DNA of 64,000 nt from Gracilariopsis chorda. Taxonomy: Eukaryota > Rhodophyta > Florideophyceae > Gracilariales > Gracilariaceae. The notes below the pieces were generated by a model. The model saw only the letters and a program-made list of their open reading frames with translations. It did not search any database and was not told the origin of the DNA. Positions 1,071 to 54,678 of the stretch are shown piece by piece. The position numbers were made by a program, and so were the translations under genes. The first letter of the stretch is position 1. Each line of letters opens with the position of its first letter. The stretch covers positions 1 to 64,000 of the forward strand of contig NBIV01000210.1 in assembly GCA_003194525.1 (NCBI GenBank). Reading direction: 5' to 3'.

Positions 1071-3756
1071 TGACTAACTATGACAAGAAAAATGTGACTA
1101 ATGACTGACTAACTACCACTTGTGGGAAAAATGTAGTCATTAGTCATGACAGTCTTGACACCTGTACAACTGTGCAACTGTGCAACGTGTCTTACACGTG
1201 GATACTCACAGGCCGCCGCCGTCGACTCCATTTCAGAACGGGAGTCTTCCAATCGTGGTTGCCTCGGACTGCCCCACCGGCGACAACATGAGGCCACCTG
1301 TTCCTTTGCCGGCTGAGCCACGTGCGTCATCTGAGCCAAGTTCTTCGCCGCAGTCTCCCCAAAATGGAGAACCATCACCAGTCGAGATCACGGCAAAGCG
1401 GCTCGTAGAGCAGCAGAGTGAAAGACAAAAGAGACGTCGCAAGGTAGGAGCCGGGCGCGGGTCGAGCGTCAAGACGTCACTCTGGAGCACGACTGCCGCT
1501 ACAGTGCATGGCAGTAATGGAAAGTTCAAGTTTACATGCGCTACCTGTGGAATTGAAGGCGCCATGAATAGCACCTTGTCAACAAGCAACGTCATCGTTC
1601 ACTACAAGATCAAACATCTCGCATTGCATAACGATCTCGTTTCTCTTAACAATAGCAATGCCACTGAAGTTGCCCTTACATCTCGTATCTCGCAGGAACG
1701 AAGGCGAAATACTCGTCGGAGACGGAACAGTGACATACAGCGTTACTTCACGCCCAGCAATGGCGGTGGTTCGAGCGGACTTTCAGCGTTGGAAACTGTA
1801 AACATTCCGGCTAAGGTTCTGCAGTCTGTGGCTATTGTGATGTTCTCGTGCTTTATGGAGGCCTCCTCTTCTCAGCTCGCATCACCGGTCTTGCAAGGAT
1901 TCGTGGATGTGTTTGGGGGTCGCATACAATTTGCGAGTAAGGATATGACGGAGAAAACATTGTTTGACACGTACGCTGCTGTCTGTCGCATCCTACGGCG
2001 CTCCGTTACAGACGCGCGGACAGGATGCATAACGGTCGATGGGTGGAGTGCTGCGCTGGGTGCTCCAATCCTTGGAATGACATGGCATTATATTGACAAG
2101 CAATGGAACATGCGTTGCGTTCCCATCGCAACTCTGAACATGGGATTAGCGTCCAAGACCGGTCAACAACTACGCTATATCATGCAGGAAATACTAGAAC
2201 AGAATCCAATCGTGGGCGCTGACGATGTTTGCGTACACACGGGTACTAGCGATAATGATGCTGCCACCGCCCTGGCAGTTGATCTGCTTACCAACTACGT
2301 TGGTTCCGTGCGCTGCGTGGTCCACACGCTGGCCTTGGCAGTGAATGATGTTTTCGAGCATGGTACTGTGTGGAAGTTGTATCTGGACCATGTGAACAAG
2401 GTGACGACATACTTTAACCATCACCAAAAGGCGGCACAGTTGCTAGCTCAAAAGCAAGGAGAGGAGGGGATTACCAAAGATCGCGTGCATAGGCTCAAGC
2501 ACGATATTCCCACGCGCTGGCATTCTCGTCTTGCTGCGATGTCTGTCTATCTGTGCCGGATTCATAATATCTCAGAAGTGGCGGAAGAGCTCGAGATAAG
2601 TTCGGAGCACCTGCCTACGCTTTCTGAAGATCAACAGGATGTCCTCGCTGAGTTCATTACTGTACTTGCAGAAGTTCGCAGGGTCGCTCGTCAGCTGGAA
2701 GCCGACCGCAAAGTAACCATGTCCCGCGCACCGCGTTTACTCCGTGAGCTACATGAGACGCTGATGATTATGGCTAGTGCCATGCTTCCTGCGCAGTCTA
2801 TGGAGTATACCGAATCCGTCCCCGCACTTACTTTCGAGGATACGAATGACTTATTTGAAGTTTATGCGTTGCCAACGAGGCCGAGTTCTGCTCCTGCCGA
2901 CAAAAAGAGAGATGAAGCACGTCAAATAAGATTGACCCGGAACCAACCGAAGTCATTGGCCGTCAAACTGGCTGATCGCATTGCATTTCGGCTGGGAGCT
3001 GTTTGGGAACGTGTTGACGAGGAGGCAGCTCATTGGCGTCCGAACACAGATCAAGAGTCTGAACCAGATAAAGACTTGCATGAAGCACGTCGTGTACTTC
3101 TCTTCCACGTTGCTGCAATTATGGACATGAATGAATGTTGCCTAGACTTCCTGGACTGCTCAGAGAATGATCGAAAAGCCTACAAAAAGGTTCTATTCTC
3201 GGCTGTTGTTCGGGAGGCTGTCGAGCTGGAAAGTTCCCTGGCTCCTAGAGCAGAGAGGCTCGAGGTCGTTTTCGGTCTTCTGCACGACGAAATGCGCGAG
3301 GTTCTAGAGGAAAAATGTAGAAGGGATCCCAGTGCTGCTCTCCTATTCTGGGAACAAGCGAATCAAACATCTACGATGATTAGCCCTGTTCCTTTCAACA
3401 CAATTGCACGAGCTGCGCTGTCCTCTCAAGCATCCTCGGCCCCTGCTGAGAGACTTTTTAGCGATTTAGGCAGGAGGGAAGGCAATCAAAGCCAGTCGTT
3501 ACTGTCCAGTACTCTGGAAATGTCCGAAATGATACGGGTTTTTGTTTGCAACGAGCTCAAGAACGCCCCACTCCATCAAAACGGGCTCATGCACCCAAAG
3601 GGTGATGCGTTTAGACGTCTAGTGCGTGTCGTTGCTCACGAGATAGTAAAAGAGTAAAGTTGTTATAGAAGTGACTATATTTGACTAACTAGCACTCAAA
3701 CAGCGGTGACTATGACTTTTTGGATCCCAGAAATCTTAGTCACAAATACGCCCCTG
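1053..3756 (+). mobile_element. hAT-superfamily DNA transposon, apparently complete
   Basis: This 2,704-bp element is bounded by 18-bp inverted repeats that differ at one position (1053-1070 and 3739-3756) and flanked by a perfect 8-bp duplication, GTCGTGGG, the length expected for hAT insertion. It carries one long transposase frame (1288-3657) on the plus strand and no other gene. It sits inside a copia retrotransposon of opposite orientation. Removing the element and one duplication copy rejoins the copia frame. Intact ends, intact frame and identical duplications suggest a recent insertion compared with the decayed host element. Confidence 0.93.
1288..3657 (+). CDS. hAT-family transposase, full length (789 aa)
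   Basis: This protein would cut and reinsert the surrounding element in the nucleus. After a Pro/Ser-rich and basic N-terminus comes a BED-type zinc finger (Cys84, Cys87, His105, His110 in a FTCATCG...HYKIKH context). The RNase H-like core has the first catalytic Asp at about 251 (ITVDGWS), followed by the usual H-hydrophobic-D segment (WHYIDKQW), and a second Asp at about 322 (GTSDND). The chain then has the Cys/His segment (RCVVHTLALAV) and the TRW motif (IPTRWHSR). The C-terminal hATC dimerisation region holds SSAPAERLFSDLG, with Glu at about 721. The first ATG is at 1288; the frame is open upstream to 1180 but without an ATG. No stop or frameshift interrupts it, and all landmark residues are present, so it may be functional. 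Its length fits the usual 600-800 aa of the family. Confidence 0.93.
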   Translation: MRPPVPLPAEPRASSEPSSSPQSPQNGEPSPVEITAKRLVEQQSERQKRRRKVGAGRGSSVKTSLWSTTAATVHGSNGKFKFTCATCGIEGAMNSTLSTSNVIVHYKIKHLALHNDLVSLNNSNATEVALTSRISQERRRNTRRRRNSDIQRYFTPSNGGGSSGLSALETVNIPAKVLQSVAIVMFSCFMEASSSQLASPVLQGFVDVFGGRIQFASKDMTEKTLFDTYAAVCRILRRSVTDARTGCITVDGWSAALGAPILGMTWHYIDKQWNMRCVPIATLNMGLASKTGQQLRYIMQEILEQNPIVGADDVCVHTGTSDNDAATALAVDLLTNYVGSVRCVVHTLALAVNDVFEHGTVWKLYLDHVNKVTTYFNHHQKAAQLLAQKQGEEGITKDRVHRLKHDIPTRWHSRLAAMSVYLCRIHNISEVAEELEISSEHLPTLSEDQQDVLAEFITVLAEVRRVARQLEADRKVTMSRAPRLLRELHETLMIMASAMLPAQSMEYTESVPALTFEDTNDLFEVYALPTRPSSAPADKKRDEARQIRLTRNQPKSLAVKLADRIAFRLGAVWERVDEEAAHWRPNTDQESEPDKDLHEARRVLLFHVAAIMDMNECCLDFLDCSENDRKAYKKVLFSAVVREAVELESSLAPRAERLEVVFGLLHDEMREVLEEKCRRDPSAALLFWEQANQTSTMISPVPFNTIARAALSSQASSAPAERLFSDLGRREGNQSQSLLSSTLEMSEMIRVFVCNELKNAPLHQNGLMHPKGDAFRRLVRVVAHEIVKE

Positions 3757-34130: not shown

Positions 34131-37100
34131 TTAGGGTTGCGGAAGAATGCAGAACTGAATAGCTTCAGACAGCACTGGGTTAGCAATGGCCACAGGCATG
34201 CGGTAAGTTGTGTCCCAATTTGCGGATGTAAGCTGCAAGTCATGCAGGAGCAACAAATGGTTTTTCCTTCGAACGCGCGACAATGCGACATACAGCTGAC
34301 CGGCACAGAAAACGTTGCATCGCACATTCATAACCAAGCCATCCAATGTCTTTCCCTGTCCTTTGTGAACTGTAGCTGCAAACGCGAGACGAATGAGGAA
34401 CTGCCTTTGTACATGCAAATGTCTGCCAAACAAACTCGATTTCGATACGATGCAGGAGCTGTCGTTCCAGCACCTGTCCGTCCTCGTAAAATTGAGCCAC
34501 CTGCATCGTAAACTGATCGACTTGCACGACTACGAACAGCTTTTTGTTGAACACAGCGGGATACAGCACGTTCTGAATGACCATAACTGGCACACCGATC
34601 TTCAAGTCCAAGTTGTGAGGCGGTACTCCAGTAGGCGCATACTGATATCCAAACTTGGTGACGATAGTACTGGAGAAGTCAGACTCTGGGTTCTGTCCAC
34701 GAACAGGTTGCACTATTGTCGCTGACAAAAGAGTGAAGGGCTCACCAAGAAACAGATCTAGCGCTGCTGCATTATGTTCGTCGACCAACTGGTTTGTGGA
34801 GGCAATGAGCATTTTGCTGAGATCCACATCCTCCTTGCGTCGTGTTGTGAGCCACTTCCACAGGAATTGGTAGGCAGTTTACATGCAACCGATAGATCTG
34901 AGTGGTAGTGGAGCATTGTTGGATATTTTGTTTCGTGCAATGGAACGTAACATCTACGCAAATGCCGGATCATCGGCTTGGCGTACTTGTTCGGTGAGAT
35001 ACAGCACTTGAACCGAGCACAATGTCCAGAGATCACTCTTCCACGGCAATTCGTTGAGAATGTTTGTGTACACTCGTCTCACATTTCCACTTAGCTCGGC
35101 CTCCATGTACACCTGTGGCATCACTGGAAGCAGCTGGGGGAAGTCGCCCAATAGAACGATGGTCAAGCCCCCAAACGGAGGAGGGTTTTCCATTCCACTG
35201 CAGCGAAGATCTTTCAGCAACACATACATGAGTTCGAACAGTTTTCTTGAAAGCATGGACACCTCATCCAAGACGAGCAGTTGTATTTCGCGTAGCAGTT
35301 CTGCACGTTGAGATCGGGGACCATACTCTGCCAAAGTGGCTGTAGTGTTGCTTGTGCTGTCCCTATCAGCTACACCCAGTCCGAGCAAGCTATGTAAAGT
35401 GCGGCCACCTTCGTACAACGAAGCTGCAATGCTTGTTGTAGCAGTCATTTCGGCGATCATTCCTTCCGACTCAACGATATCACGAAGGAGGTTGAGCACG
35501 TATGTCTTTCCGGTTCCTGCGGATCCTTTCACAAAGAACACGTTTCCAGGATTGCTTGTTCGCTCCTGCACCGCCTTTCGTTGGTGAAATGCGACAATGA
35601 CGGTGTCAATGACTTGTCTTTGGCGAGGTTTTAGGGTGGCGCACCTTGACCGCAAAGTTGACAAATGTCGCACCACTCGCGCGTCTCGACTTGTTGTACC
35701 TCGATTCACCTGATTCAATACTGTATGACCCTGCTGTAGGTGTTGCGAGAAGAAGCTGTGATCGCGAAGCAGTCGTCCTCCGTGCCGGTCTGAGATCTCC
35801 ACCACACGTCGATAAATTTCTTGCTTTCGTTGCTGCTCATCTCCTGTATGTATGTCGCTACATAGCTCCTCCCAGTTTTCGACGGCCATTTTTTCTGGGT
35901 CTGCGCCTTGTTCGTATAGTGTGACAACCAAACGCCATAGCTCGGAGGGCGTGCTTTACATCTGCACTGCTTCTTGAAATGCAATATCAAACTCGGATCT
36001 GTCCGCGAGCAGTCCGCTTACAATGGCAGTTTCACGATACGTTCCATACTGCTGTCCGTTGACAGTCCTTTCGTCTTCATAAGAGTTCAAGCCGTGATTC
36101 ATGAGCAGCAAGCGCAGAGCAAAGAGCTCAATGTTGGACGGTGAAACACCTCTGATCCTTGCGACGCACTGCCCGTCTTCCGTGCGCTGTACCACGTACA
36201 TGGGCGGATCGCAGTCTTCTGTGGGCACATGAGTGCTGTCTCCGTCATATTGGTTAAGCAAGTGGGCTGGAAGCGTGCAATACAATCGAACTTTTTCAAA
36301 GTACGAAAGGTAGTCGAGGTTCGCATATGCTTCAGGCCTTGCAAAGTATCTCTCCAATGTAAACGGCTGGGATGCAGAAAGAAGCTGGTTTGGACCTCTC
36401 AGCAGAAATGTACGCTCTCCTTCCAAGTGAATGGCTAGTCGCTCTACTTTTGGTACGATGTGAACATGTCGAAACTCGAAAATTCTCCAAGCTGCATTGA
36501 CTGCGCCCACCACACGCGCTCGCTTTTATGCATGAATGTCGTTCTGCACATGCGGCTCTTGTTGCTGCTCGTTTTGTGTGCCTGTCTCATTAGCACCAAT
36601 CACATTGAGCACCACCTCCTGAGCTTTGGGCTGCTTAAACGCGTACTTCATCAGATAAGCCACTGCGCCCCCTCTTTGCGTGCGGTCTACGTTGATATGG
36701 GAGCGGTACTTCTTGGTCAGAGTTGGGTTGTACGGCACTATCTTGAGGTCATGTTGCTTTCTTCTGCCGTAGACCACGCGATTTGTGCCTTCTTCAAAGT
36801 ACGTCTCCGGCACAATCATGTTGCGGTTGTATCCGAACTTGCAACGGCCAGCGTGATTCTGGCAATAGGGGGAGTGGCGGTGCCTGTGTATGGAACTAAT
36901 AAGGGCATGCAACGCTTCGTATTCACCTGGAAGAGGGAGTTCTGCACGAATGAGCTCGTCGATCACATCAACTTCTTCAATCATGCCTCCTTTGAGCCAC
37001 ACGAGCATGTGGTGATGAGACACATTGCATCCTCGAAACTCGAGCTTTGATGCAAGCCCCAGGCATTTCAATCCAAAATATGTGCTCCGGGTTCTTCTCC

Positions 37101-42329: not shown

Positions 42330-43010
42330 TTAATCTCTACTATTCGTTGTGCGTTGAAAGTAAACAACCAGTTTGTTCACTGGACATTAAAGCAAGTTTT
42401 ATTTCTTCCACCAGATAATAAAAGATTTTGTCGAGAATGGACTACAGAACACGTCACATAGAACGCTAAACAGTAGCGCAAAGTTAATTTTTCGGACGAA
42501 AAGAAGTTTAAGTTGGACGGTTGGGATGGCTTAGAATCATACTGGCAGGACTTTGGTTCAGGAGAGCGTTGTTCTTCTAAATAACACAAGGAAGGAGTTG
42601 CAATCATGGTTTGGGGCTGTTCTTCCTACTTTGGTAGAGATCCTTTGGTCGTTATGAATGGAAATAAGGACTCTAACAAGTATACGAGGCTAATCAATGA
42701 TCCTCTATTGGATTGGGCTGCTGTAACACACGGCGCATCTTGGGTGTTTCAGCAAGAAAACTATCCAATTCATGTTTCAAAGTACTCTAAAGACTGGTTT
42801 GCTTCAAAAAAAAATTTTTTATTGGACTGGCCTAGTCGTGCGCCGGATATGAATCTGACTAAAAACCTATGGTCTCTACTAGGGCGCCGTGTGTACTGCA
42901 ATGCATGCCCGTTTAGATCCTTGGTGGAGCAAGAACAACGAATTTTACTGAGTGGAATAAGCTTAGTGATGAGGTACTGCAAACGTATAGCGACAGCATG
43001 CAGCGTCACT
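42330..43010 (+). pseudogene. Tc1/mariner transposase remnant
   Basis: Translated in shifting plus-strand frames, this is a Tc1-type transposase. The order is: helix-turn-helix end (RFCREWTTEHVT), VNFSDEKKFKLDGWDG with the first catalytic Asp, MVWGCSSYFGRDPLVV, ASWVFQQENYPIHVS where the second Asp reads Glu, and LDWPSRAPDMNLTKNLWSLL where the last acidic residue (usually Glu in PIENLW) reads Lys. Stops and frameshifts lie at about 42460 and 42590. With two of three catalytic residues changed it is dead. I did not find convincing terminal inverted repeats; a short AACCAATCA/TGATTGGTT pair (42281 and 43104) may be chance. Confidence 0.82.
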
Positions 43011-44571
43011 GCATTGCTTTACTCACTGCCCGAGGTGTGAAAAAAAAGTATTGACTGCGTACTGTAGAATAAAATATGCAGCAATAAAGGTTTCCAATAC
43101 TTTTGATTGGTTAAAAGCACTGTTTTATTGATTGTTAGCCTATTGTAATGCTTTTTAGATCATTACGAGCATAGTTTGCTTGCTTTAGAGTGGGGGTTAG
43201 AGGAAATGGGGATTTCGCGTGAGGATTATGACTGGTGTGTTGTCCATGGCCGGTATTATATTTTCGACGTAGACTGTATTTGCCGGAGAGTGGATCGGAA
43301 ATATATTCGTAGCTCGAGAGTACCAGCACTGGCGTGCAATGCCAATAGATAGTAAATCAAAAAGGATTAATTGCAACGTGAGTACTGCCGCGATAGGCAC
43401 AAGAAATGCACCGCCTCGACTAAGGCAAGGTGGAAATAGATCATGATAAAAGCCTACGCAGGACAACAGCCCACCAGCAGCGGTAGAGAAGAACAATGGT
43501 GACAACTATTGCGTGACCAAAACCTTAAGTCTAGGGCAATATGGATACGAACGTATCCACTAAACATGTAGGCCAAAACCTTACATATAGTGCGTTGTTT
43601 GAGGCGAACTTGATAAATTGCCCGACCAGAACTTCGGGGTTCGGCGGGTGTTATTTAAGTGTGATAAATACGCCAACTGGTCTTGTAACAAGCCTAGGTA
43701 GTCAAGATACTCAAGATTTGCGTGTTTGCAAGAGATCAAGCTCCAATTTAATAGAGGGGATAAGGGAAATATTATTCTTGAAGGCAAGGAGGAGAATACA
43801 GCCCTAATACGGGGGAGTCACAAAAGAAAGAAAAACTGGTCTAGTCCGAGTGGTATTGGAGGCCGGCGAACTTTCGCTTTTATAAACAACTGTTCTACAT
43901 GCACATTTTTAAGGTCTGCATACTAAATCAAATAAAAACCCATAATAACCTGGCATAGGTCACATCCCTGCCAGGATGGACAAACTTGGCCAAACATATT
44001 ATAACTCTTAGGGTACGTCGGTGTTCTCGGAATGCTAGATAGAGGTGCTAGATCGCAAGTTTCTTAGGCAAAAGCTCAAAAATACTACGAAAATGATACA
44101 TTCTGCTAGTTTCTGGCGTTTGCCAAGTTAAAAAAAAAATTTTGGAATTCACACTTCCATATCTTACAGAGCCTTGCCTCACCTGCACTGCGCATCGCTA
44201 GTTTCAAGTTTGGAGCAAGTTCATTCTCCACTAAAAGCTAGATACAGATCTCAAAATGGCGCTGGCCGCTGCGCGGACAGCGCAATTTCGAGCACCCAAC
44301 CAAAACTAACATTTTTATTTCCATCTTTTGAATTTCAAACTTCATACTGTCCTAGTTTGACTTCCAACTCATCCTCAGGAACTCATCTTTGCAGCTCTCT
44401 CCGTTCTCAAATACCCGACGCACGGCACATCAGATTTCAATACCACCAATTCCGTCGTCCTAACAGCCTCAAAAATATTCCTAAACATCACTAGCCTTCT
44501 TCTTCATCTTCCCTCTTTCCATGCCTCCTCTTCAACCGACTCTGAACGTCCAATTCTTCTTCTTCATTCTT
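43011..44571. other. AT-rich stretch without a supported gene
   Basis: Scattered short frames only. A 102-codon hydrophobic frame on the minus strand (43197-43505) and an 88-codon plus-strand frame (43541-43807) show no known motif. Nothing repetitive enough to name. Confidence 0.5.
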
Positions 44572-45434
44572 CTACAACCTCTTTTTCACGACCACTCTAC
44601 CTCCAGGAGTAACCGGAGACCCACTCCCGACAGCACCTCCCACCCCACCTTCCCCTCCACCTCCATACATCTTGTTCCGCATATCCTCGAATAGATGCAC
44701 AGCCATGTCTACCAGGAAAAGCCGCTTCTCCAACTCCAAAATCCGTCCTCGCAACTCCTCATTCTCCTTCCACAGCCTCCCCAGCTCCTCTCCCACACAC
44801 GCCACAACCCCATCGACGTGCTGTTCTGCCTACACCTCAGCCTCTCTCAGCCTCCGGCGCAACTCAGCCACAGCACCCATCGGCACTCCTTCCTCCGACT
44901 CACTCAGAACCATCCCTCCCAACTCCACGACAACCTCCTCAATACACTCATCCAAACGCTCCTTAAGCCCTCCCCCAGCGCTCCTCAATAACTTCCCTCA
45001 CATCGCGGTATAACCCATCCATTCGTCTCCCTCCACCTCCCCAGTGTGACGAAATATTTTGTCTTAACGATAACCACCAAGTCCTCTCCAGGTCTCTGCG
45101 TAGAGGACAGGGGATGTTCGTGTAGTGAACGACAGAGTCTCGTCCCCAGCCCCCCAGCAACCCCCACACCGCGCAATTTCGCCTCTCCTATCTTCACCTT
45201 CGCATCAATAATCCCAACTCGTACGAACAGATTGACCTCCGCATCGCCCTTAAGCACCTGACCCGTATTGCCCCCAATTGATGGCTCAGGGTGGCTGGCA
45301 GTTCGGGTGGCGCCCGGGCTCTTCACATTGCTTCGCGTCGTCGGCGTGTCGATAACACGTCTTTTCGGCGAAACAGGCTTCCTCGGAGTCCGTTTCCGTG
45401 GTGGCGCGTTTATCTTATTCTCATTGGAATCCAT
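44572..45434 (-). pseudogene. Broken gene: basic N-terminus plus long coiled coil (left flank of methyltransferase-SET cluster)
   Basis: Starting at ATG 45434 on the minus strand, the product has a Lys/Arg/Pro-rich N-terminus (NAPPRKRTPRKPVSPKRRV), then a folded-looking stretch (GQVLKGDAEVNLFVRVGI). After frameshifts near 45020 and 44965 the frame continues as a charged coiled coil (LKERLDECIEEVVVELGGM, one stop at about 44832, then EELGRLWKENEELRGRILEL) and ends in a Gly-rich tail. Its sense strand is strongly purine-rich. In layout and composition it resembles the plus-strand gene at 49289-50368. It is divergent from the 45896-48991 genes, with a large hairpin in the spacer. Function unknown; nucleic-acid binding is plausible from the basic N-terminus. 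Confidence 0.5.
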
Positions 45435-45645
45435 GGCTGAGTACTTCAAAGGTCGCGCTTGCGTTTTCTTGGCACCCGCTGACGTCGAAAGCTACCCTGA
45501 TCATGTATGCCTGGTTCTAAAGAGATGGAAGTAAGCACTATATATCGTTTTCAAAACATTTCATGACATCCATTGTCGTCAACGTAGCATCCCTGCAATT
45601 TCCCTCCCATTTAATTGCATTGCAAAAAGAATTTAATAATTTTTT

Positions 45646-45793
45646 GGTCGAGGACCATGGTCCGAGGTGTTGTGGTGCTCCATCGCGAAGACGATGGAGC
45701 GCCAGGACGCGAAATTTCAATTAACATTCATGCCTGGTGCTCCATCGTGTTGGCGATGGAGCACCATGACACCTCGGACCACGGACCTCGACC
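45646..45793. repeat. 148-bp inverted repeat (two 61-bp arms) in a divergent spacer
   Basis: The left arm (45646-45706) starts GGTCGAGGACCATGGTCCGA and the right arm (45733-45793) is its reverse complement with about seven mismatches. The spacer is about 26 bp of AT-rich sequence. Each arm contains an inner palindrome (GCTCCATCG...CGATGGAGC), so the whole can form a branched cruciform. It lies between the starts of the minus-strand coiled-coil gene and the plus-strand genes of the methyltransferase-SET cluster. I see no clear target duplication around it. Confidence 0.85.
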
Positions 45794-45895
45794 CAAAACG
45801 AAGAGAAACATAATCCGAAGGAAACGGGTTCCTTCAGGATGCACGGAACCGGAGAAGAGCTTATTGATGCTTATCTTGTAGTTTGTGATGAATAA

Positions 45896-47062
45896 GAAGC
45901 GACAAGGCAAAATGTGGATGAGCCGAGAAGTTTGAAGCACACCGAATTTGTGCAGTTCGCGGTACAAAGTCGCAACGTTCATGACTCTGCCAAGAAAATG
46001 TTTCTCACTCTCATCGGACCGGATTACTTCTCGTGTTCGGACTCCGAGCTCCGTAATATGTCTCTCCGAGGCCCTCCACGTCAACTCTATCTTATGGCAA
46101 GAGTGGTGGACGTAAAGGACCGTGAAGAACACAGGCGTGTAAGGGAATTTTGGAAGGTTTATTGTAAAAGGGAAGGGCTTAAAGGAATTCCCCGTAACTT
46201 GTTGCTATCTGTCTTTTGCAAGTCCCTTGTTCTGGGAGCAACCAAGAAATGTTCCGCTTTCCACATGGATCCTTGCACCGATTTTGAAATAGTCATTGGG
46301 TTGTCTATGGTGCAACAGAATGCCGTGGATAAGAAAGGAAGTGGTAGGAAGAGGAAAAGGGGCATGGCAGCTAAGAAGTTCTCGAAAGTGAGTTTGTCAG
46401 ACAAGACCCAGAGTCAGAGAGTCGGGTATGGTGTGCAGCTGGTGATTAGGGCTTGGGACTGTTTGGCCCAATTCCTCGGGTTTCCCAACGTTGAGGCTAT
46501 GATCTTGCCTTACATTCGACTCGACTATATCAGTGTAGTCCTCACTGATATCGCACAACGCTCAATGGGCTTCCTACACAAAGATTGTTCCAAACAGTTT
46601 GTGGAGGAGAAGAACGTCACCACCGTAGAAGAAAACGTTACAAAATGGGCATGGAATCTGCCGGGCCCAGTGGATACAGCGCTTCGCCTTTGCGCCAAAG
46701 AATACCTTGGTGAACTTTCTAATGTGGTGGTAAGAGAGAAACTGTTCGACATCTCTGCTCCCAGCAAATGGGATGCCCTGAAAAGGTTCATCATCACGAG
46801 AACGAGACTTTTCCCTCTGCGGTTTGAGAACTTTAGTGAATCTCTTCTCACTACGGTTCAAGAGGCCATAAAAACTCTGAAGCTCATTTCATTGCATGGA
46901 AGCAATGTCAAAGTACATCAAGCTGTGAAACCAGAGCCCGCAGAAGACGTTGACATCATTATGGAGCCGGTAGAAACTGGTACGGCTACTGGTGGGAACG
47001 AACGTGCTGAGCGTGTGGAAGGTGGTGATCAGGGTGAGTTAGAAGAAGTGGAAGAGATATAG
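45896..47062 (+). CDS. Unrecognised protein upstream of, and in frame with, the methyltransferase
   Basis: The frame is open from 45896 to a TAG at 47060-47062; the first in-frame ATG is only at 45998, so the true start may be in an upstream exon or lost. The product (about 355-388 aa) looks like a real folded protein: FYSCSDSEL-type surface then RQLYLMARVVDVKD, FWKVYCKREGLKGIPRNLLL, a basic loop (GSGRKRKRGMAAKKF), VGYGVQLVIRAWDCLAQFLG and FIITRTRLFPLRFENFSESL, ending in an acidic tail. I do not recognise a family. The TAG is followed at once by ATG of the methyltransferase frame with no frame change, so both parts may once have been a single protein now split by one nonsense codon, or be joined by readthrough. 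Confidence 0.5.
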   Translation, partial: EATRQNVDEPRSLKHTEFVQFAVQSRNVHDSAKKMFLTLIGPDYFSCSDSELRNMSLRGPPRQLYLMARVVDVKDREEHRRVREFWKVYCKREGLKGIPRNLLLSVFCKSLVLGATKKCSAFHMDPCTDFEIVIGLSMVQQNAVDKKGSGRKRKRGMAAKKFSKVSLSDKTQSQRVGYGVQLVIRAWDCLAQFLGFPNVEAMILPYIRLDYISVVLTDIAQRSMGFLHKDCSKQFVEEKNVTTVEENVTKWAWNLPGPVDTALRLCAKEYLGELSNVVVREKLFDISAPSKWDALKRFIITRTRLFPLRFENFSESLLTTVQEAIKTLKLISLHGSNVKVHQAVKPEPAEDVDIIMEPVETGTATGGNERAERVEGGDQGELEEVEEI

Positions 47063-48991
47063 ATGGTAGAGGATGCGGAAAGTGGTACTGCGGAACGTGG
47101 TACTGCACCAAAGGCCACTGAAGGACTGCAGACAACAGCTTTGTCGCAGAACTTATCGTATGATGTCGAAGGCACGGGGATTCGTGCACCACCGTACCCT
47201 ACGACTTTGGATGATGTGATAGCTTACAAGTATTGTGAGAAGGAGATGTCCCGCAACTTCCGTCTCCACAACTGCAAGTTCCAAAATCTCATCGAAGTTG
47301 ACGACAACAAATCTGGCGAAAGCGAGGTATCTATTGACGGAAGGGTACAGTTCCTGCTTTCCGATCCGCCATATGGGACTCGTTCTGAGCGTCGTTTAGA
47401 TAACAGCGAACACGATATTCTGACAGAGAAGGGCATGAGCAGGTCAGCGAGGAGGTTGTCAATGCTTTTACGTCCTGGTGGACATATTATTCAGTTCTGC
47501 TCATGGGATCAGGTACCGTTGTCGCGGGATGTGCTACGGAAAGTTACCTACAAGGATGACTCTGATACGAAGCGTTACTCCTTTGTCGTCGACGAACAAC
47601 CCCTCCATTTCGTACGGTCTTTAGGTAATACGACGGGTAACGTTGGGAGAAGAAGTTGCCGGTTGCACCAGACGACAGAATACGCTGTACATGCTGTTCG
47701 TTCTGAGCTCCTTATGCACAACAGCACAGGATGTTCAACTATGATAACTTCAATTATGTTGCTTCACGATACGCAGCTTATCATGCAATCATGGATCAGG
47801 TGCCGCCGATGTCAAATAGTGAGATGCTCATGTGGTCCGTGAAAACCCTGGATGAGAAGTATACGTGGAAGAGGGTGCGACTGGAACAGAAGTATAGGGC
47901 ACTGTTGAAAGAGCTGATTTGCAGGTTCAGTCAGCCAGGAGACCTCGTGGTGGACATGTTTGCCGGAACGTTCTTGACAGCGATGGCGTGCATAGAACTG
48001 CCCAAGCATCGGAAGTTTGTGGGGTGTGAACCGGACAAAGCTTGCTTTGAACACGCCAGGCATGCCGCTATTGTTCGCTTCGCTTCCATAATACGGGAAG
48101 GACACACGGGTATTGAGAAGAGCCAGGAGCTTCGAAAGATGGCCCATTGTGTTTCCTCTGAATTCCCAATGGGAAGAAGCAGGCACACCGTGCTATGGAG
48201 GGCTGTCGACGGATTTCCAGCGTACCAAGTTCTTCCACCACACCTTGTCGACATTCTCTCCACTTTGTGGCAAAATGAAATTCTAGGGAAGTTGGGAAGG
48301 AGGAAATCTATGGATGGATTGCCGAGGGAGCTGCAGGGAAGAATGAATCTGGAGAACATGAAGTCTCTATTGGCAATGCATGCTGTGCAATATGGGTTGC
48401 GAGTGGGCAAGTCTACTATTTGTCACGAAAACGCTGGTGTTGGAGTGTTTGCAACTCGTCAAATTGCTGCAGGCAAGGTAGTGTGCTATTTCTAAGGCAC
48501 GTTGGTTTATCATGACCTTTCGAATCGGAAAGAACTGCACAAGACCTACGGGGAGGGAGTCATGGGTGTGACAAAGGATCGAATCCGGAAGTATGCGGTG
48601 GATATAGAAGTATACGGTCAACAGTTCCAATCACTTCCGCATCGAAAACAGCTGACGAACTGGCATGGAAAACAAGCAAACCCCATTTTATGGGTGGTTC
48701 CTGCCCCATTTTTGTATTGTGGGGTATATCAACGATCCAAAGTACGTGGAAGGGGATAAACAGTTAGATGCCCTGGTGGATGGCCTCGTGAAAAAAAGGG
48801 AGGTTAATGTGCGAATGAAACGGACACCAAGAGTGGGACGAACAGCAGGGGGAATAACGGACTACAAACTTATTAAGATGGAGGCGACAGCCGAAATAGA
48901 GCAAGTAGAGGAACTCTTCGCCAGACACGGTGATCTTTATGACTGGCAAACCCGTTTGAATGTGGAGGATGGAACGATAGTCATTGATTAG
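47063..48991 (+). pseudogene. DNA amino-methyltransferase (DPPY) fused to a SET-like domain, decayed
   Basis: First part (47063-47700): QFLLSDPPYGTRSERRLD is methyltransferase motif IV, followed by LLRPGGHIIQFCSWDQ. After a frameshift between about 47700 and 47731 the frame continues NYDNFNYVASRYAAYHAIM and LLKELICRF, then motif I, GDLVVDMFAGTFLTAMACIE (about 47938), and FVGCEPDKACFEHA. The order IV then I is that of beta-class N6-adenine/N4-cytosine enzymes. About 120 residues later a SET-like domain starts (AGVGVFATRQIAAGKVVCYF, a TAA where Tyr is expected at 48493, then GTLVYHDL). A frameshift near 48665 leads to GYINDPKYVEGD, in the place of the usual Asn-His-Ser-Cys motif, and EIEQVEELFARHGDLYDW at the end. 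Enzymes that both methylate DNA and carry a SET domain are not familiar to me. This copy is inactive. Confidence 0.72.
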
Positions 48992-49288
48992 TTTGTTGTT
49001 ATAAACCTTTGTCCACAGCTTGGCTAAAGGGCGACGTTTATCATTTGAACAGATGTGTAGTCCTAACTTAGGAGAACATCAATTTTCAGTAAGGATAGAA
49101 GATACAAAGCGATATAGATGTGATACAGAAACGTCCATTTTCGGTACCACGGAGGATTGTACTCTCAAGATTTCACAAAAAACAAATATTTTTGTGCGCA
49201 TTCGTTGGCGAGATTTTCCCGGACAACACACGGCGTGCACCATCCCAGAGCGTCACTAGCCACTTGCGCAAGAGGTTTGACTCCAAGA

Positions 49289-50368
49289 ATGGCGCCGAAG
49301 GGAAAGAAGCGAGGCCCGGCAAGGGGTGGTGCGGCGAGTGCGCCTAAGACGCGGCGAAAGGCTATGGAGGAACGAACCGCGAGTGGAACGAAAGCGAAAT
49401 CATGCGTTCCCAGGAGCGGATTATCGGGGAGGAGGTCAGGAGAAGGTGCTTCGAAGAGAGGGGGAAGAGGTGGGGCAAAGAACGTCGGATCCGAGCGCAC
49501 GACGAGTGAGCGCACGACGAGTGAGAATTTGAAGGCTGATGCCCATGCCCATGTAGCACGCGGGAGAGATTTGGTTCGGGGACAGCGATCTATGCCTGGG
49601 TCTGGTGGTGGGGTGGAGGGTAAAAAAGGGTCGGTTGCTAGGAGAAGGGAAGAGGTACCAGATCAGGGAGGGTTGAAAGCAAATTTGCGGGTCGAAGACC
49701 AAAATAAAGATGAAGAAATGCCGGAAAGAAAACAAATGGAAGAGGCAGTTGCGCTGAAGAGAGGCGGGGCCCCAAGGGGAAATCAATATGGAGAAGAGGT
49801 AAGTGTCCCTCTGTTAGAGAGTGATAGGGACGAACAGGATCAAATTGTGAAGGGGAGATGGACGAGAGAGAGAATAAAGGAAGGAGTGGGACGCTCCTCT
49901 GATTTAAAGGTAACGCGAGAAGTGAAAGAAGTGGTCAGAGTGACGGATGGAATACAGGAAGCATTGAAAAGCGAAGAACGTACGAGCACACCGGTACGGG
50001 CACGAATGGTGCAAATGGCTCAAGACTTGGAAAGTGATAAAGGAAGCAGAACGCCGCGGACTCCGGAAGGAATGCGAGAGAGAAAACGAAGTGTTCATTG
50101 GTCGCCAAGTGAGCCTGCTGAGGAGCGACGGCTGCCTGTCAATATTTTGGGAGATGCAGGGAATGACGAAATCGGTGTGATGTGTCGATCTTCGTTAGTT
50201 GAGAGGGTCAATATGCTGAAGGCAGAACTCGGGCAGATCAAAGGGGACCAATGCAGCCTAAAGATGTCGCTGAAGCTGACGCAAGAGGAACTGAAGAGGA
50301 TGAGAGAGGAGATGAGCGAGAAGAATATGCTGATAGATAGCTTACGGGAAGGGATGAAGGGGAGATGA
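49289..50368 (+). CDS. Basic, low-complexity protein with C-terminal coiled coil (359 aa)
   Basis: From ATG 49289 (MAPKGKKRGPARGGAASAPK) the first 130 residues are Lys/Arg/Gly/Ser-rich with a short tandem repeat (SERTTSERTTSE). A charged middle follows, then RKRSVHWSPSEPAEERRLPV, and the last 55 residues form a clear coiled coil (VERVNMLKAELGQIKGDQCS to EEMSEKNMLIDSLREGM). No enzyme motif. The sense strand is very purine-rich. The same frame continues past the TGA at 50366 into the next segment, so the stop may be a mutation in a longer protein. Possibly a nucleic-acid-binding or particle-forming protein of the same mobile element as the methyltransferase-SET gene; this is inference from position and composition. 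It resembles 44572-45434 in general layout. Confidence 0.55.
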   Translation: MAPKGKKRGPARGGAASAPKTRRKAMEERTASGTKAKSCVPRSGLSGRRSGEGASKRGGRGGAKNVGSERTTSERTTSENLKADAHAHVARGRDLVRGQRSMPGSGGGVEGKKGSVARRREEVPDQGGLKANLRVEDQNKDEEMPERKQMEEAVALKRGGAPRGNQYGEEVSVPLLESDRDEQDQIVKGRWTRERIKEGVGRSSDLKVTREVKEVVRVTDGIQEALKSEERTSTPVRARMVQMAQDLESDKGSRTPRTPEGMRERKRSVHWSPSEPAEERRLPVNILGDAGNDEIGVMCRSSLVERVNMLKAELGQIKGDQCSLKMSLKLTQEELKRMREEMSEKNMLIDSLREGMKGR

Positions 50369-50401
50369 GGGGAGAGAAAGGGATCTGAAGGTGAAAAGGA
50401 A

Positions 50402-51705
50402 TTGCGAGGGCGTAGGAAGTATGTGGTTGCTGTGCAAGAGGGTTTTTATAGGTTTGCCAGGGTATTATATGATAGGTTGTTGTACTATGCGAAAGTGGAG
50501 GTATCGGAACTTTGTTTTACTTCGGAGGGTGTGGAAAGGAACTGGACGAATCGATGCGAAGTATTGGGGAAGGGAAAAGAGGGGAGTGTGTTTGTTGTGG
50601 GAGGAAAGGAGATTGTACCTCGATGTCCGTTTGAGATTGCGTCTGAGATGAGGTCGTACACGCCTTAGTCGCGAGGAGGAAGTAATGAACTATTGAAATA
50701 CTTGGTTGGCGTTGAGATTGAGGGGGAGAGATGGGAGTGGAGTCGTGAAGCGGGTAGGAAGGATCAATGCGTGCGGGAGGTTGTTGCGGACAGGTGTTTG
50801 AGGCAACGTATGAAGCAGAAGTTGAGTGATGTGATTGGGTTCGGAAGCGTGCCGGACGGGACAAAATGTTTTCTTTGCTTGGATATGACTTGATAGCAAG
50901 ACGTATGAGACCGCGAGAGGGGACGGAGCTAGACATTGAGTTGAAGAAGCAGTTAGAGGAAGTGAAGACGAAGTTCATGGGGGATGGGGACGTGAGGAGT
51001 GGCAGGTTTTGTTCTTGGACGATGAAAACAATCGAAGATCTTACGTATTCTGGATTTCAGGTTGCTGGGAGGCTGAGAGAGTTTAGTGAAGGGGAAATGT
51101 ACTTCAAGAACGGGGCTGCGGTGGAAGTGTTGGAAGAATTCATGGGATATGAGGTGGGAACGGAAAGGGAGGGAAAGATGGAGTACGTTGATGGGACAGT
51201 GATGCATTTGGCTCGTTTGGATGCGTGGAACGGATGTGTTTTCACGGAAATGGACACAGATGTGGGGCGAGGAGGAAGACGGCAGTTGTTATTTTCTACG
51301 TTGTACGGTGAGTATCTTCTGCTCGCGGTAGAGAATATACTTGGTGTGGCGTGGGAGAGGGTGAGAGAGCTACATCATGAAGAATTGGAGAATGAAGGTT
51401 GCGATGAGGGTGAACCGCGCTGTATACCTGGCAGTGGGGATAGAGAAGTGACGGTAGCGCTGTGGATACCGTCGAAGCGGAGGATATACTTGATCGTGAA
51501 GGATGAATACTTTTTGGAACATATGACGAAATGGCTGGGAGGGGTGCTGGACTGTTATCTTGCTGCGTGTTGGCCAGAAGATGTGTGGATGAAGAGGTTG
51601 GAGAAAGAGAGTCGAGATGTTGGGAGAGGTGAAGCGAGGGATCATGTCGAGGCGCAGTGGGAGGAAAGTCTGGGAGGTTATGAAAAACAAGTTGAAGAAG
51701 AATAG
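50402..51705 (+). pseudogene. Unrecognised protein, broken by a stop and a frameshift
   Basis: In the frame of the preceding gene, 50402-50668 reads YVVAVQEGFYRFARVLYDRL and ends at a TAG (50666). The same frame resumes to about 50890 (LLKYLVGVEIEGERWEWSRE), then shifts by one to the long frame 50866-51705 (279 codons), which includes GRFCSWTMKTIEDLTYSGFQ, VDGTVMHLARLDAWNGCVF, LLFSTLYGEYLLLAVENILG and RRIYLIVKDEYFLEHMTKWL. The composition is that of a folded protein, not chance. No family recognised and no catalytic motif visible. Together with 49289-50368 it may form one decayed protein of roughly 800 residues. Purine-rich sense strand like its neighbour. Confidence 0.5.
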
Positions 51706-54678
51706 TGTTACTGGTGGAACGGGTGGTTTACGGATGTGTCGTAGATTGTGGGGCGTAAGGCTTTGAAGAGGTGTCACGATAGAATCGGCTGATGTAGAAA
51801 CGATGGAAGCGCCAGTGAAGACGAGGAGTGAATGGTGGGGCGGGGTAGTTTTCTCGAATGACGTGGACTGCACCTAGAATGGAGGTGGAAGGAATGAGGC
51901 CGAACCAAGGAGATACGTTGTCGTCGGTGGAAGGTTTGGAGATGGGAACTGGATCCGTGGTGTGGTCCCGCTCGTCATCGGTTGACCACCGAAGGCAGAC
52001 GCAGTTGAGGGTGATATCGACATTGTCGCGAGGTGGTACAGGTTCAAGGAATTGTACGAAAGCGAATTCCTTTGTAATGAGAGTGGAAGAGCTTGAAGAG
52101 GGGGAATGTAGTTTGAAGCGAACTATGGCGCTGAGCGTGGAGACCCATACAGTGTGTGTGGATGGAGAGGAGGAGTTCGTTCCTGCAACAAGGATATGGG
52201 AGAACTTTGGTGATCTGGAAGGTCCGAATGATGGAATGGCGAAGATGCGCAGGAGGAGAGGGATGGAGGGTTCTTGGAGGACGAGTTCGTTTTGGTCTTG
52301 GTTGTAATTGTGTAGTGTTGGGATCTAACGGCCGACGACGTATGTCGCTTGGTCCTTGGAAGGAACTGGATGGGAGCTTTGGCGGAGGAGGAAGGGAGTT
52401 TGTCAGGGGTGAGTCGATGAGGGCACCTGCGTTGGTGACTCTGGAGAGAGAACGCGGTGCAGCCATAGAAGGTGCAACGGGGATGGCAACAGGGTATCAT
52501 GGCGGGGGAAGGAGAACGGAGAACGGGATGCTTGGAAACAGAGAAGGGAGGGTGGTGGCGGAATGGGATATCGGGGAGCGTAATATTATGGCACACGTAG
52601 ATGAGGTGGTGCACGTGATGCAGAGCGTCTTTTCGTAGGGCGTGGGGTAGAGCATGCGATGCAGGGAGCAGGTCGGGCAACGGGTGATAGGAAGCCAAAG
52701 CTATTTGGTTACGTAAATGCTATTTATCTATTCTATCTATTCTCTTTTGCTATTTGAAGGGGCAATCGCTCAGGACCAGTAAGATTTGGATTCCAAGTGC
52801 ACCTGAGAGGGTAGGTATTAGTGGATTCTGGGGCTAGTTTTACCTCCAAAGAAACTGGGAAATGTCTAGTATACCGCTAGTATTTGTCCCAAGCAAACTA
52901 GCTCTGTGCTATGTATGGAATTATTTTGAGAAATTTGATTCATTCAAAATTGGGTTTGAAGAGTCGTTATTCGTCCATTTTAATTCTTTGCCTTTTGAAT
53001 GGCAAACTAGCATCCCGAAAACACCGACGTATATTTTGTCTATAAAATACCTTGTGAGAGCCTTAGACATTTTCAGCAATATTGTTCCAGCCATTTCATC
53101 ATGGCTGAGCATCCACGTCCGAATGTCATTCAGCTTGTTCGAGAGATATCTGACAACGCTTCCCCGGAACCATCCTCTAAGTGCAGTCATTTCATTGACG
53201 ACGTAGCCTCTGAAGCAAGGCCTCCCATCGAGGAAGCTCTCAATTCAGGCACAGTATGGTTTGATGTATCAGGACAGCGCCATTGACCCCTTAAGCTACG
53301 TTTCCCAGTTTGGTGGCCTGCTCGTGGGTCTGGTGGACAGCAACTAGAAAATATGTGAGCTGCAGCCTTCTTTTCAACATTGCTTGAAGTACCTGCCCTC
53401 TTTGTATATACAAGGTATTCTGGAAGGAATGGCATTCGTTGCGCGAATCCTTGGTGTTATGGTGGCAGTAGCCAATTCAATACATGAAGAGTTGGAGAGA
53501 ATGGAGTAATATGTGGTATCATCCCTCTTTATAATATCAGTGAACTGTTTCTACTTGTACGCTCATCGTTTTCATAAGTTTCGGTAGGGATGTGGTACTG
53601 CAAGAGTGTCCGGCGGCGGTGGCGGTGGGTGGCGCAGCGCGAATGGTGTGTGCGAGCAGCGGCGTGGATGGCGTGAGGCACTGGCAGCGACGGAGAAGAG
53701 CTGCTGCTCCTTGTCCAGATCGCTAGCCCAAGTGACTCCAGACTGCAGGCACTGAAAGAGCGGCAGGAGCGACGGGCGGCCACGCATGGCGCGCCCGAAC
53801 AGTGCGCCCGTCATGTGCGGTGGCCACATCTGCACGTGGCCCGGTGGCGCGCATGCGCTGGCCACAATGTCGACAAACAACGCCTTGCAGAGTCATTCTC
53901 ATTGCTGATGGCGAGCGCACTGAGGAAGGGCGTGGTGGCTGCGGTGGCTGCGGTGGCTGCGGCGGCTGCGGCTGCTGGCCCCAGGGGGGAAATTGGCGCG
54001 GGTGTGGCGCTGCGGAGGGCGCTGCGGGCGGAAGCGGTGAGAGGGGGTTTGTCCTTTGAATGAGATCGAATATTGTAGGGATTCGACTCCCCCTCGCGTT
54101 TCCACTTAGGTAAAGGGAGAGGGGGGGTTGCCTGACAATACCCACTCCTAAAGTCACAGGTTGTTCGTAGCATATCGCTTATTTTGGCGCCAAATCATCG
54201 TATCCTTTGCTTAAACCCTTCTATGATGAAATGAATGGTTTCACTGTTCACTCCATTCGACTGAACTGTCATTCAAAACCTGCAATACAGTATCTTTGAG
54301 TGCATTCATATTCTCGAATGCTTACCGTAGCCAAGTGCATTCCAAAGATTTCTAAACTTTACATTCAAAACTTGGAATGAATTCAAATGGTTCAAGTTTG
54401 CAACCAATCACCATTCAAATATTCAAATCAGAGTGTATTTTAAACAAATAACGCTCACTCCAACTCGAAATTCTAACTTCAAATACATGTGTGCATTTTA
54501 CCGCAGAAAAGGCTCAATCATAATTGTTGTGATTGAACCTACATGTTCCAGTACGAAGAGCAACAACATTGGGAAACAAGGTTTGTCCATGACATAGTCG
54601 CTTTTTCTTTGACATTTCCAATGGATCTGTCGCCAATAGATGATCCAATATATGATAATCAACAACATGCATCAATAA
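51706..54678. other. Mixed stretch with fragments of uncertain nature
   Basis: 51858-52650 stays purine-rich on the plus strand with short frames on both strands. One minus-strand frame (52698-52123) contains a C2HC finger-like motif (CHPRCTFYGCTAF, then LQSHQRRC; Cys-x3-Cys-x12-His-x3-Cys) within Ser/Pro-rich sequence. 52860-53290 has open frames on both strands without motifs. A minus-strand frame at 53572-53880 might be an exon, but there is no support beyond codon composition. 54180-54670 is AT-rich with repeated ATTCAAA-like words. Confidence 0.35.
53931..53978. repeat. Short tandem repeat of GGTGGCTGC
   Basis: The 9-bp unit GGTGGCTGC is repeated directly about five times with slight variation, from about 53931 to 53976. 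On the minus strand it would encode a repeated Gln/Pro-Pro or Ser-His-Arg pattern, depending on frame. Confidence 0.8.

Follow-up and report, generated by a model that had tools for sequence, protein, structure and literature searches.

A DNA methyltransferase–SET fusion gene inside a Plavaka-type transposon of the red alga Gracilariopsis chorda

The window analysed here is a stretch of 64,000 nucleotides of G. chorda (positions 1 to 64,000 of contig NBIV01000210.1, here C210, assembly GCA_003194525.1). It carries a broken gene in which a DNA methyltransferase is joined to a SET domain. This gene is the internal cargo of a DNA transposon and does not merely lie near transposons. In intact copies within the 91.3 Mb assembly searched, a helical domain, a beta-class DNA amino-methyltransferase and a SET domain are found in one frame. 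We regard the identity of the element and of the fusion as practically certain.

The fusion gene and its domains

When the intact 1060-aa protein was compared with the window by tblastn, residues 19–1060 matched positions 45824–48988 of the plus strand. The match fell into three consecutive stretches; there were two frame changes and three in-frame stops, and this copy of the fusion element is dead. A previous reading made from the letters alone (the sequence-only reading) had noted frameshifts and stops and had placed the gene at 45896–48991. The start given there, 45896, is the boundary of a stop-to-stop frame, and homology begins at ~45824. The motifs named in that reading were found on the plus strand and in the order given, with SDPPY (motif IV) at 47360–47374, DMFAGTF (motif I) at 47953–47973, GVGVFATRQI from 48436 and EELFARHGDLYDW shortly before the end at 48988. 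The N-terminal helical domain lies at 45824–47059 (+) and the SET remnant at 48436–48988 (+). The motif-I fragment alone matched PF01555 at 2.1e-9 (38.1 bits; cut-off 26.7). In the profile scan, neither the fragment with motif IV nor the SET fragments alone matched a methyltransferase or SET model, because the domains are split by stops and frame changes.

The intact 1060-aa frame was read fully in two copies (L059:2993-6175 and L060:3219-6401), and a third copy has an open frame of 1065 codons. The proposed joining of the two domains was thereby confirmed: both lie in one open frame, they are not confined to separate genes, and PF01555 and PF00856 both match in intact relatives (the SET match is marginal in the reference copy and clear in others). 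PF01555 covers residues 513–751 (1.2e-18; profile positions 1–220 of 221), with DPPY at 519 and FAGTF at 718, and SET covers residues 877–1039. Motif IV before motif I, together with the full PF01555 match, is the arrangement of beta-class N6/N4 methyltransferases, as had been read from the letters. The methyltransferase also has the fold of known beta-class enzymes, and residues 511–752 match PHROG 67, a phage DNA methyltransferase family, at 1.4e-22. A Pfam scan of the whole protein (E ≤0.5) returned PF01555, PF00856 and PF01170 only.

The N-terminal domain was modelled with AlphaFold2 from positions 45896–47059 (pLDDT 75.9, pTM 0.74); the model had no clear match in the PDB, and no known fold was found. 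In protein databases, pieces of the fusion are named adenine methyltransferase YhdJ or hypothetical protein, and four G. chorda proteins match the methyltransferase domain. ParB-methyltransferase proteins were three of the four weakest database matches of this domain. By eye, the family members P0015 and P0018 have a ParB-like start (no Pfam match).

In the six relatives scanned, PF00856 exceeded the cut-off of 22.4 bits in five (P0003, P0007, P0009, P0012 and P0018; 28.0–33.2 bits) and stayed below it in P0015 (19.0 bits). A family profile reached KMT5A/SETD8 among the PDB sequences at 3.7e-6, and EZH2 and MLL-type SET chains were also reached. Profile–profile comparison against nine G. chorda SET domains gave a probability of 96.7% (E 4.4e-10) and 0.1% for the reversed control; three relatives without SET motifs had been dropped beforehand, and nine of the ten best ordinary SET genes were aligned. 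By these comparisons, the assignment as a SET domain is far beyond chance. GxG and the catalytic tyrosine were present in 15 of 18 homologues, all 15 of which kept the PN asparagine. At 20 window-like loci, the tyrosine position was Y in 14, a stop in 4 and H in 2, including the window itself.

These 18 homologues were found among 5.8 billion proteins, so the family is not private to G. chorda. Eleven carry both Pfam domains, and DPP[YF] is kept in 17. One homologue, P0016, is labelled as a Bacteroidota metagenome-assembled genome and may, at a guess, come from a misassigned contig.

Between the young subfamily (L059) and the window-like copies, omega was 0.16 for both the N-terminus (20 loci) and the methyltransferase (40), 0.19 for SET (20) and 0.22 for the linker (40); the loci overlap partly, and the counts are non-independent. 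Among the window-like copies, the medians were 0.70–0.91. The values between the subfamilies indicate that both enzyme domains were under purifying selection. Our reading of the history is that long selection on every domain was probably followed by a burst of copies, which then decayed nearly neutrally.

The fusion may also be cargo of little use to the element, either passive or serving the host or rivalry with other invaders (e.g. DNA viruses), as accessory genes of large elements do. Derivatives without the fusion or with parts of it were amplified, which would fit. However, omega was 0.16–0.19 over both domains between the subfamilies, and relatives at 21–37% identity retain the gene, which shows lasting selection within the lineage of the gene. 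We consider this explanation very unlikely.

The surrounding Plavaka-type element

The element occupies 44016–53029 of the window. It is 9014 bp long, is bounded by paired inverted repeats, which read CGTCGGTGTTYTCGGRATGCTAG, and is internally deleted and syntenic with an 11,851-bp copy on contig C53. The left terminal inverted repeat, CGTCGGTGTTCTCGGAATGCTAG, lies at 44016–44038 (+) and the right one at 53007–53029 (−). They are flanked by a 2-bp target-site duplication, TA, at 44014–44015 and again at 53030–53031. The ends of the element were traced by comparing near-identical copies. In a genome pattern search with ≤2 mismatches, the 23-base repeat occurred at 245 places, compared with 1 for the reversed control pattern. 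From 100 perfect matches among those listed, 24 element pairs of <20 kb were built. Ends were read for 22 of them, leaving aside the pair on C69 and the second pair on C210; each of the 22 had identical 2-bp flanks, and none had identical 3-bp flanks. When the C53 element was removed together with one copy of the duplication, a 716-residue open frame resulted, i.e. the empty site reads through. The C53 element sits inside a Mutator-like element (MULE) transposase gene (PF10551, 2.9e-9; L063:410-3460, L060:8560-9261 and L062:4794-6224), with a Ulp1 protease match (3.3e-4) in the upstream frame.

The C53 copy has an open frame of 1160 residues that matches the Plavaka transposase PF18759 (2.7e-21; 76.6 bits against a cut-off of 26.3). 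CPRC and HLLDH were seen by eye in this frame; they may correspond to the C(2)C and H(3-4)H of Plavaka transposases, which stand between the catalytic D and E. The element was filed as a Plavaka-type transposon. Its termini are CGTCGG..CCGACG and not TGT..ACA (PlavakaA) or CATCA..TGATG (PlavakaB), so it falls outside both subgroups, whose termini are defined from fungal elements in the relevant part of PMC12730594. A Harbinger or MuDR identity was rejected, Plavaka being the sole Pfam match of the transposase frame. The mobile-element setting of the sequence-only reading was borne out in a refined form, as the gene is internal to the element and not just flanked by transposons.

The suspected multi-copy family was also found. 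A genome search with PF01555 gave at least 150 matches (150 of 175 candidates scored), and the window piece as query gave 147. A listed family match adjoins 130 of the 150 PF01555 matches, and the union of both searches comprises ~162 places with methyltransferase matches. PF00856 gave 85 matches, 59 of which lie within 2.5 kb downstream of a methyltransferase match on the same strand. The other 26 include ordinary SET genes, and at least three of them (on C628, C112 and C1) adjoin family matches from the window-piece search only. A Plavaka match lies within 6 kb of 70 of the 150 listed methyltransferase matches, compared with ~1.6% of the genome. Conversely, a methyltransferase match was located ≤15 kb from 74 of 114 Plavaka matches; in 72 of the 74 cases, the two are convergent, Plavaka being on the 3-prime side.

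The remaining parts of the window element are also remnants. The Plavaka transposase (51731–52673, −) is represented by residues 17–47, 70–128 and 957–1160 only (tblastn, 55–76% identity). ORF2 (open reading frame 2; 49217–51639, +) retains 49–72% identity with two stops, and ORF-Y (44512–44994, −) retains 68% with two stops; they comprise 802 aa and 259 aa in the C53 copy, and both look coiled-coil-like by eye. ORF-X (45063–45455, −) retains 48% identity and is perhaps ParB-like further on by eye; on C745, it continues into a stretch similar to the ParB-like starts mentioned above. ORF2, ORF-X and ORF-Y had no Pfam match, and ORF2 had no PHROG match either.

An imperfect palindrome (45641–45798; self blastn, 82.5% inverted match) lies directly upstream of the fusion gene. 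A palindrome is also found at a similar place in the C53 copy, near L060:6706-6819, and thus upstream of the gene in both subfamilies; the two did not match each other in blastn. It is possibly a promoter, a target site or a nested insert.

Other mobile-element remnants of the window are a Tc1-like fragment at 42585–43037 (DDE_3, 5.6e-4, under its cut-off), a PIF1-like helicase at 34957–35955 (4e-37) and an open frame at 1159–3654, which by eye is hAT transposase-like and has no Pfam match.

What the fusion may do

We give an even chance to the explanation we favour, namely that the fusion is an element-borne dual writer. It would mark DNA, probably with N6-methyladenine (6mA), as well as a chromatin protein, and would resist rather than cause silencing. 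Both domains are probably active in intact copies; an anti-silencing or self-marking purpose is more tentative, and we would put it somewhat below even. The N-terminal part and the target-recognition region of the methyltransferase would bring the protein to DNA, either the element's own or a short motif, where the methyltransferase would write 6mA or, less likely, N4-methylcytosine (4mC). The base is suggested by motif IV, which is DPPY/DPPF: DPP[YF] favours adenine, and SPP[YF] is usual for 4mC. The tethered SET domain would methylate a lysine of nearby histone tails or of some other protein of the chromatin or the element. The paired marks would keep the element expressible against histone-based silencing. 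Catalysis, base, protein substrate and direction of the effect are all what we infer.

Several findings weigh against this explanation. In the intact reference copy, SET matched over its full length (1–105 of 105; 1.8e-4) at 22.3 bits, which is 0.1 bit under the cut-off of 22.4, and the SET scores of the genome copies are modest. The NHS motif reads ND (H to D) in all 15 SET-bearing homologues. SET motifs are unrecognisable in 3 of the 18 relatives, one of them a truncated record. Conversely, P0018 has lost motif IV and retained the SET motifs, meaning that the SET part may be useful alone. Of the eight young copies L001–L008, seven lack residues 1–419 within the 1.2 kb upstream; in five of the seven, the frame does not continue unbroken through SET. 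The breaks lie before the SET tyrosine: L001 ends at 905, L003 changes frame and L004–L006 end at 1008. Hence, derivatives without SET and without the N-terminus multiplied too. Moreover, 8 of the 24 clean-ended elements carry Plavaka and no listed methyltransferase match, so the fusion is probably dispensable in cis for movement. Together with the truncated young copies, this means that the fusion would at best act in trans for many copies.

Among the matches listed, the other clean-ended elements comprise 11 with methyltransferase and Plavaka, 4 with methyltransferase only and 1 with neither; gene losses after insertion could affect these counts. Two of the Plavaka-only elements, on C109 and C340, have the same length (7963 bp) and perfect ends, which suggests amplification of a derivative without the methyltransferase. 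Five elements of 7981–7987 bp (C12, C37, C64, C144 and C232) have both matches and appear to be copies of a single amplified deletion derivative. In C12 and C37, the two that were read, fusion residues 1–419 are absent and the match stops at 1008.

The Plavaka-only elements also bear on a possible control of transposition. According to this explanation, the methyltransferase marks the ends or newly replicated DNA for timing or for the choice of donor and target, and SET methylates the transposase or itself instead of histones. The fusion gene lies inside the element, in convergent orientation to the transposase gene; many SET enzymes have non-histone substrates, and Dam methylation times IS10 transposition in bacteria. 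However, the eight Plavaka-only elements, including the two of equal length at different places, suggest movement without the fusion gene. Transposition control would then act at most in trans, and we consider it unlikely.

For the host, no match to the C5 DNA methyltransferase PF00145 was found in the G. chorda assembly, which may be incomplete; the control search was positive in 10 of 14 genomes. The section of PMC8566409 that summarises Lee et al. 2018 gives ~8% of the G. chorda genome as methylated, with a non-CG bias and methylated transposable elements tied to small RNA. The reported non-CG methylation fits poorly with the lack of a C5 writer match, and the source of the signal is unexplained. 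The passages of PMC10538959 on red-algal methyltransferases held nothing on G. chorda. Within PMC8566409, the histone mark H3K27me3 is described on repeats in another red alga. Considering this and the missing C5 match, any silencing of the element by the host would more likely rely on histones than on 5-methylcytosine.

Silencing could also be the function of the fusion itself. In that case, it would restrain the element and its relatives by a DNA mark and a repressive lysine mark, limiting copies and host damage. There is a precedent in bdelloids: as described in part of PMC8885841, N4CMT, also PF01555, places 4mC on transposons, and 4mC DNA is in turn preferred by amplified SETDB1 variants, closing a silencing loop. 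The reach of the family profile, which extends to EZH2 and KMT5A besides MLL-type chains, also counts in favour of this explanation. However, the bdelloid system belongs to the host and not to an element, and ~162 places with methyltransferase matches do not look restrained. Furthermore, 6mA accompanies transcriptionally permissive chromatin across eukaryotes having 6mA, according to the relevant part of PMC12695648, which concerns host MT-A70 6mA. Self-restraint is therefore improbable, about as much as transposition control.

The ~8% methylation reported, the missing C5 match and an observed/expected CpG ratio near 1 (0.93 in the window) led us to a further explanation, namely that the transposon acts as a main writer of DNA methylation in the host and that one polypeptide couples 4mC or 6mA to a lysine mark. 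This is a long shot. If true, a selfish element would supply an epigenetic system, and the reported signal would have to be partly 4mC, or native 6mA would have to exist.

Returning to the dual writer, a single selected protein with a DNA writer and SET would be a self-contained way to set a chromatin state. Given intact young copies and the missing C5 match, two questions can be tested: what benefit a transposon draws from writing marks, and which enzyme is responsible for DNA methylation in this group of red algae. The fusion could also offer a natural template for proteins placing a DNA mark and a protein mark at the same site.

Comparison with known systems

The closest systems carry one of the two activities or another epigenetic enzyme. 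In the part of PMC12730594 concerned, TET/JBP genes are described in 11 transposon lineages including Plavaka, with Plavaka duplications of 2–3 bp. The TET-bearing Plavaka elements of fungi share the transposase, the short duplications and an epigenetic enzyme as cargo with the element described here. The differences are the cargo, which is a DNA methyltransferase–SET fusion here and not a TET/JBP dioxygenase, and the termini.

The same text cites Kojima and Jurka 2014 for SET methyltransferases in HarbingerS and MuDR transposons of Phytophthora. These are also DNA transposons with a SET gene, but they belong to other transposase superfamilies, and a fused DNA methyltransferase is not mentioned in the citing text. 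On C53, the MULE gene was hit by the element; it is not the element's own transposase.

The bdelloid N4CMT, as portrayed in that part of PMC8885841, is a host gene for a 4mC enzyme with a chromodomain reader, whereas here the gene belongs to an element and has SET and DPPY; the Pfam scan of the 1060-aa protein showed no chromodomain.

DNA methyltransferases are carried by other mobile elements, i.e. the DNMT retrotransposons of dinoflagellates and charophytes and DIRS elements with Dam-like adenine methylases (sections of PMC5890265). These are retrotransposons, with other methyltransferase families in the DNMT case, and the term SET domain is absent from that paper. The giant Plavaka-flanked repeats of Amoebidium (sections of PMC11244446) are likewise large Plavaka-associated gene clusters, and some of the genes in these clusters have matches in red algae; the cargo named there is tyrosine recombinases, in clusters of up to 50 kb.

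No mention of a methyltransferase–SET fusion was found in the portions of the open-access literature searched. SET or TET cargo in transposons is already known, and the fusion of a DNA methyltransferase with SET is what appears to be new.
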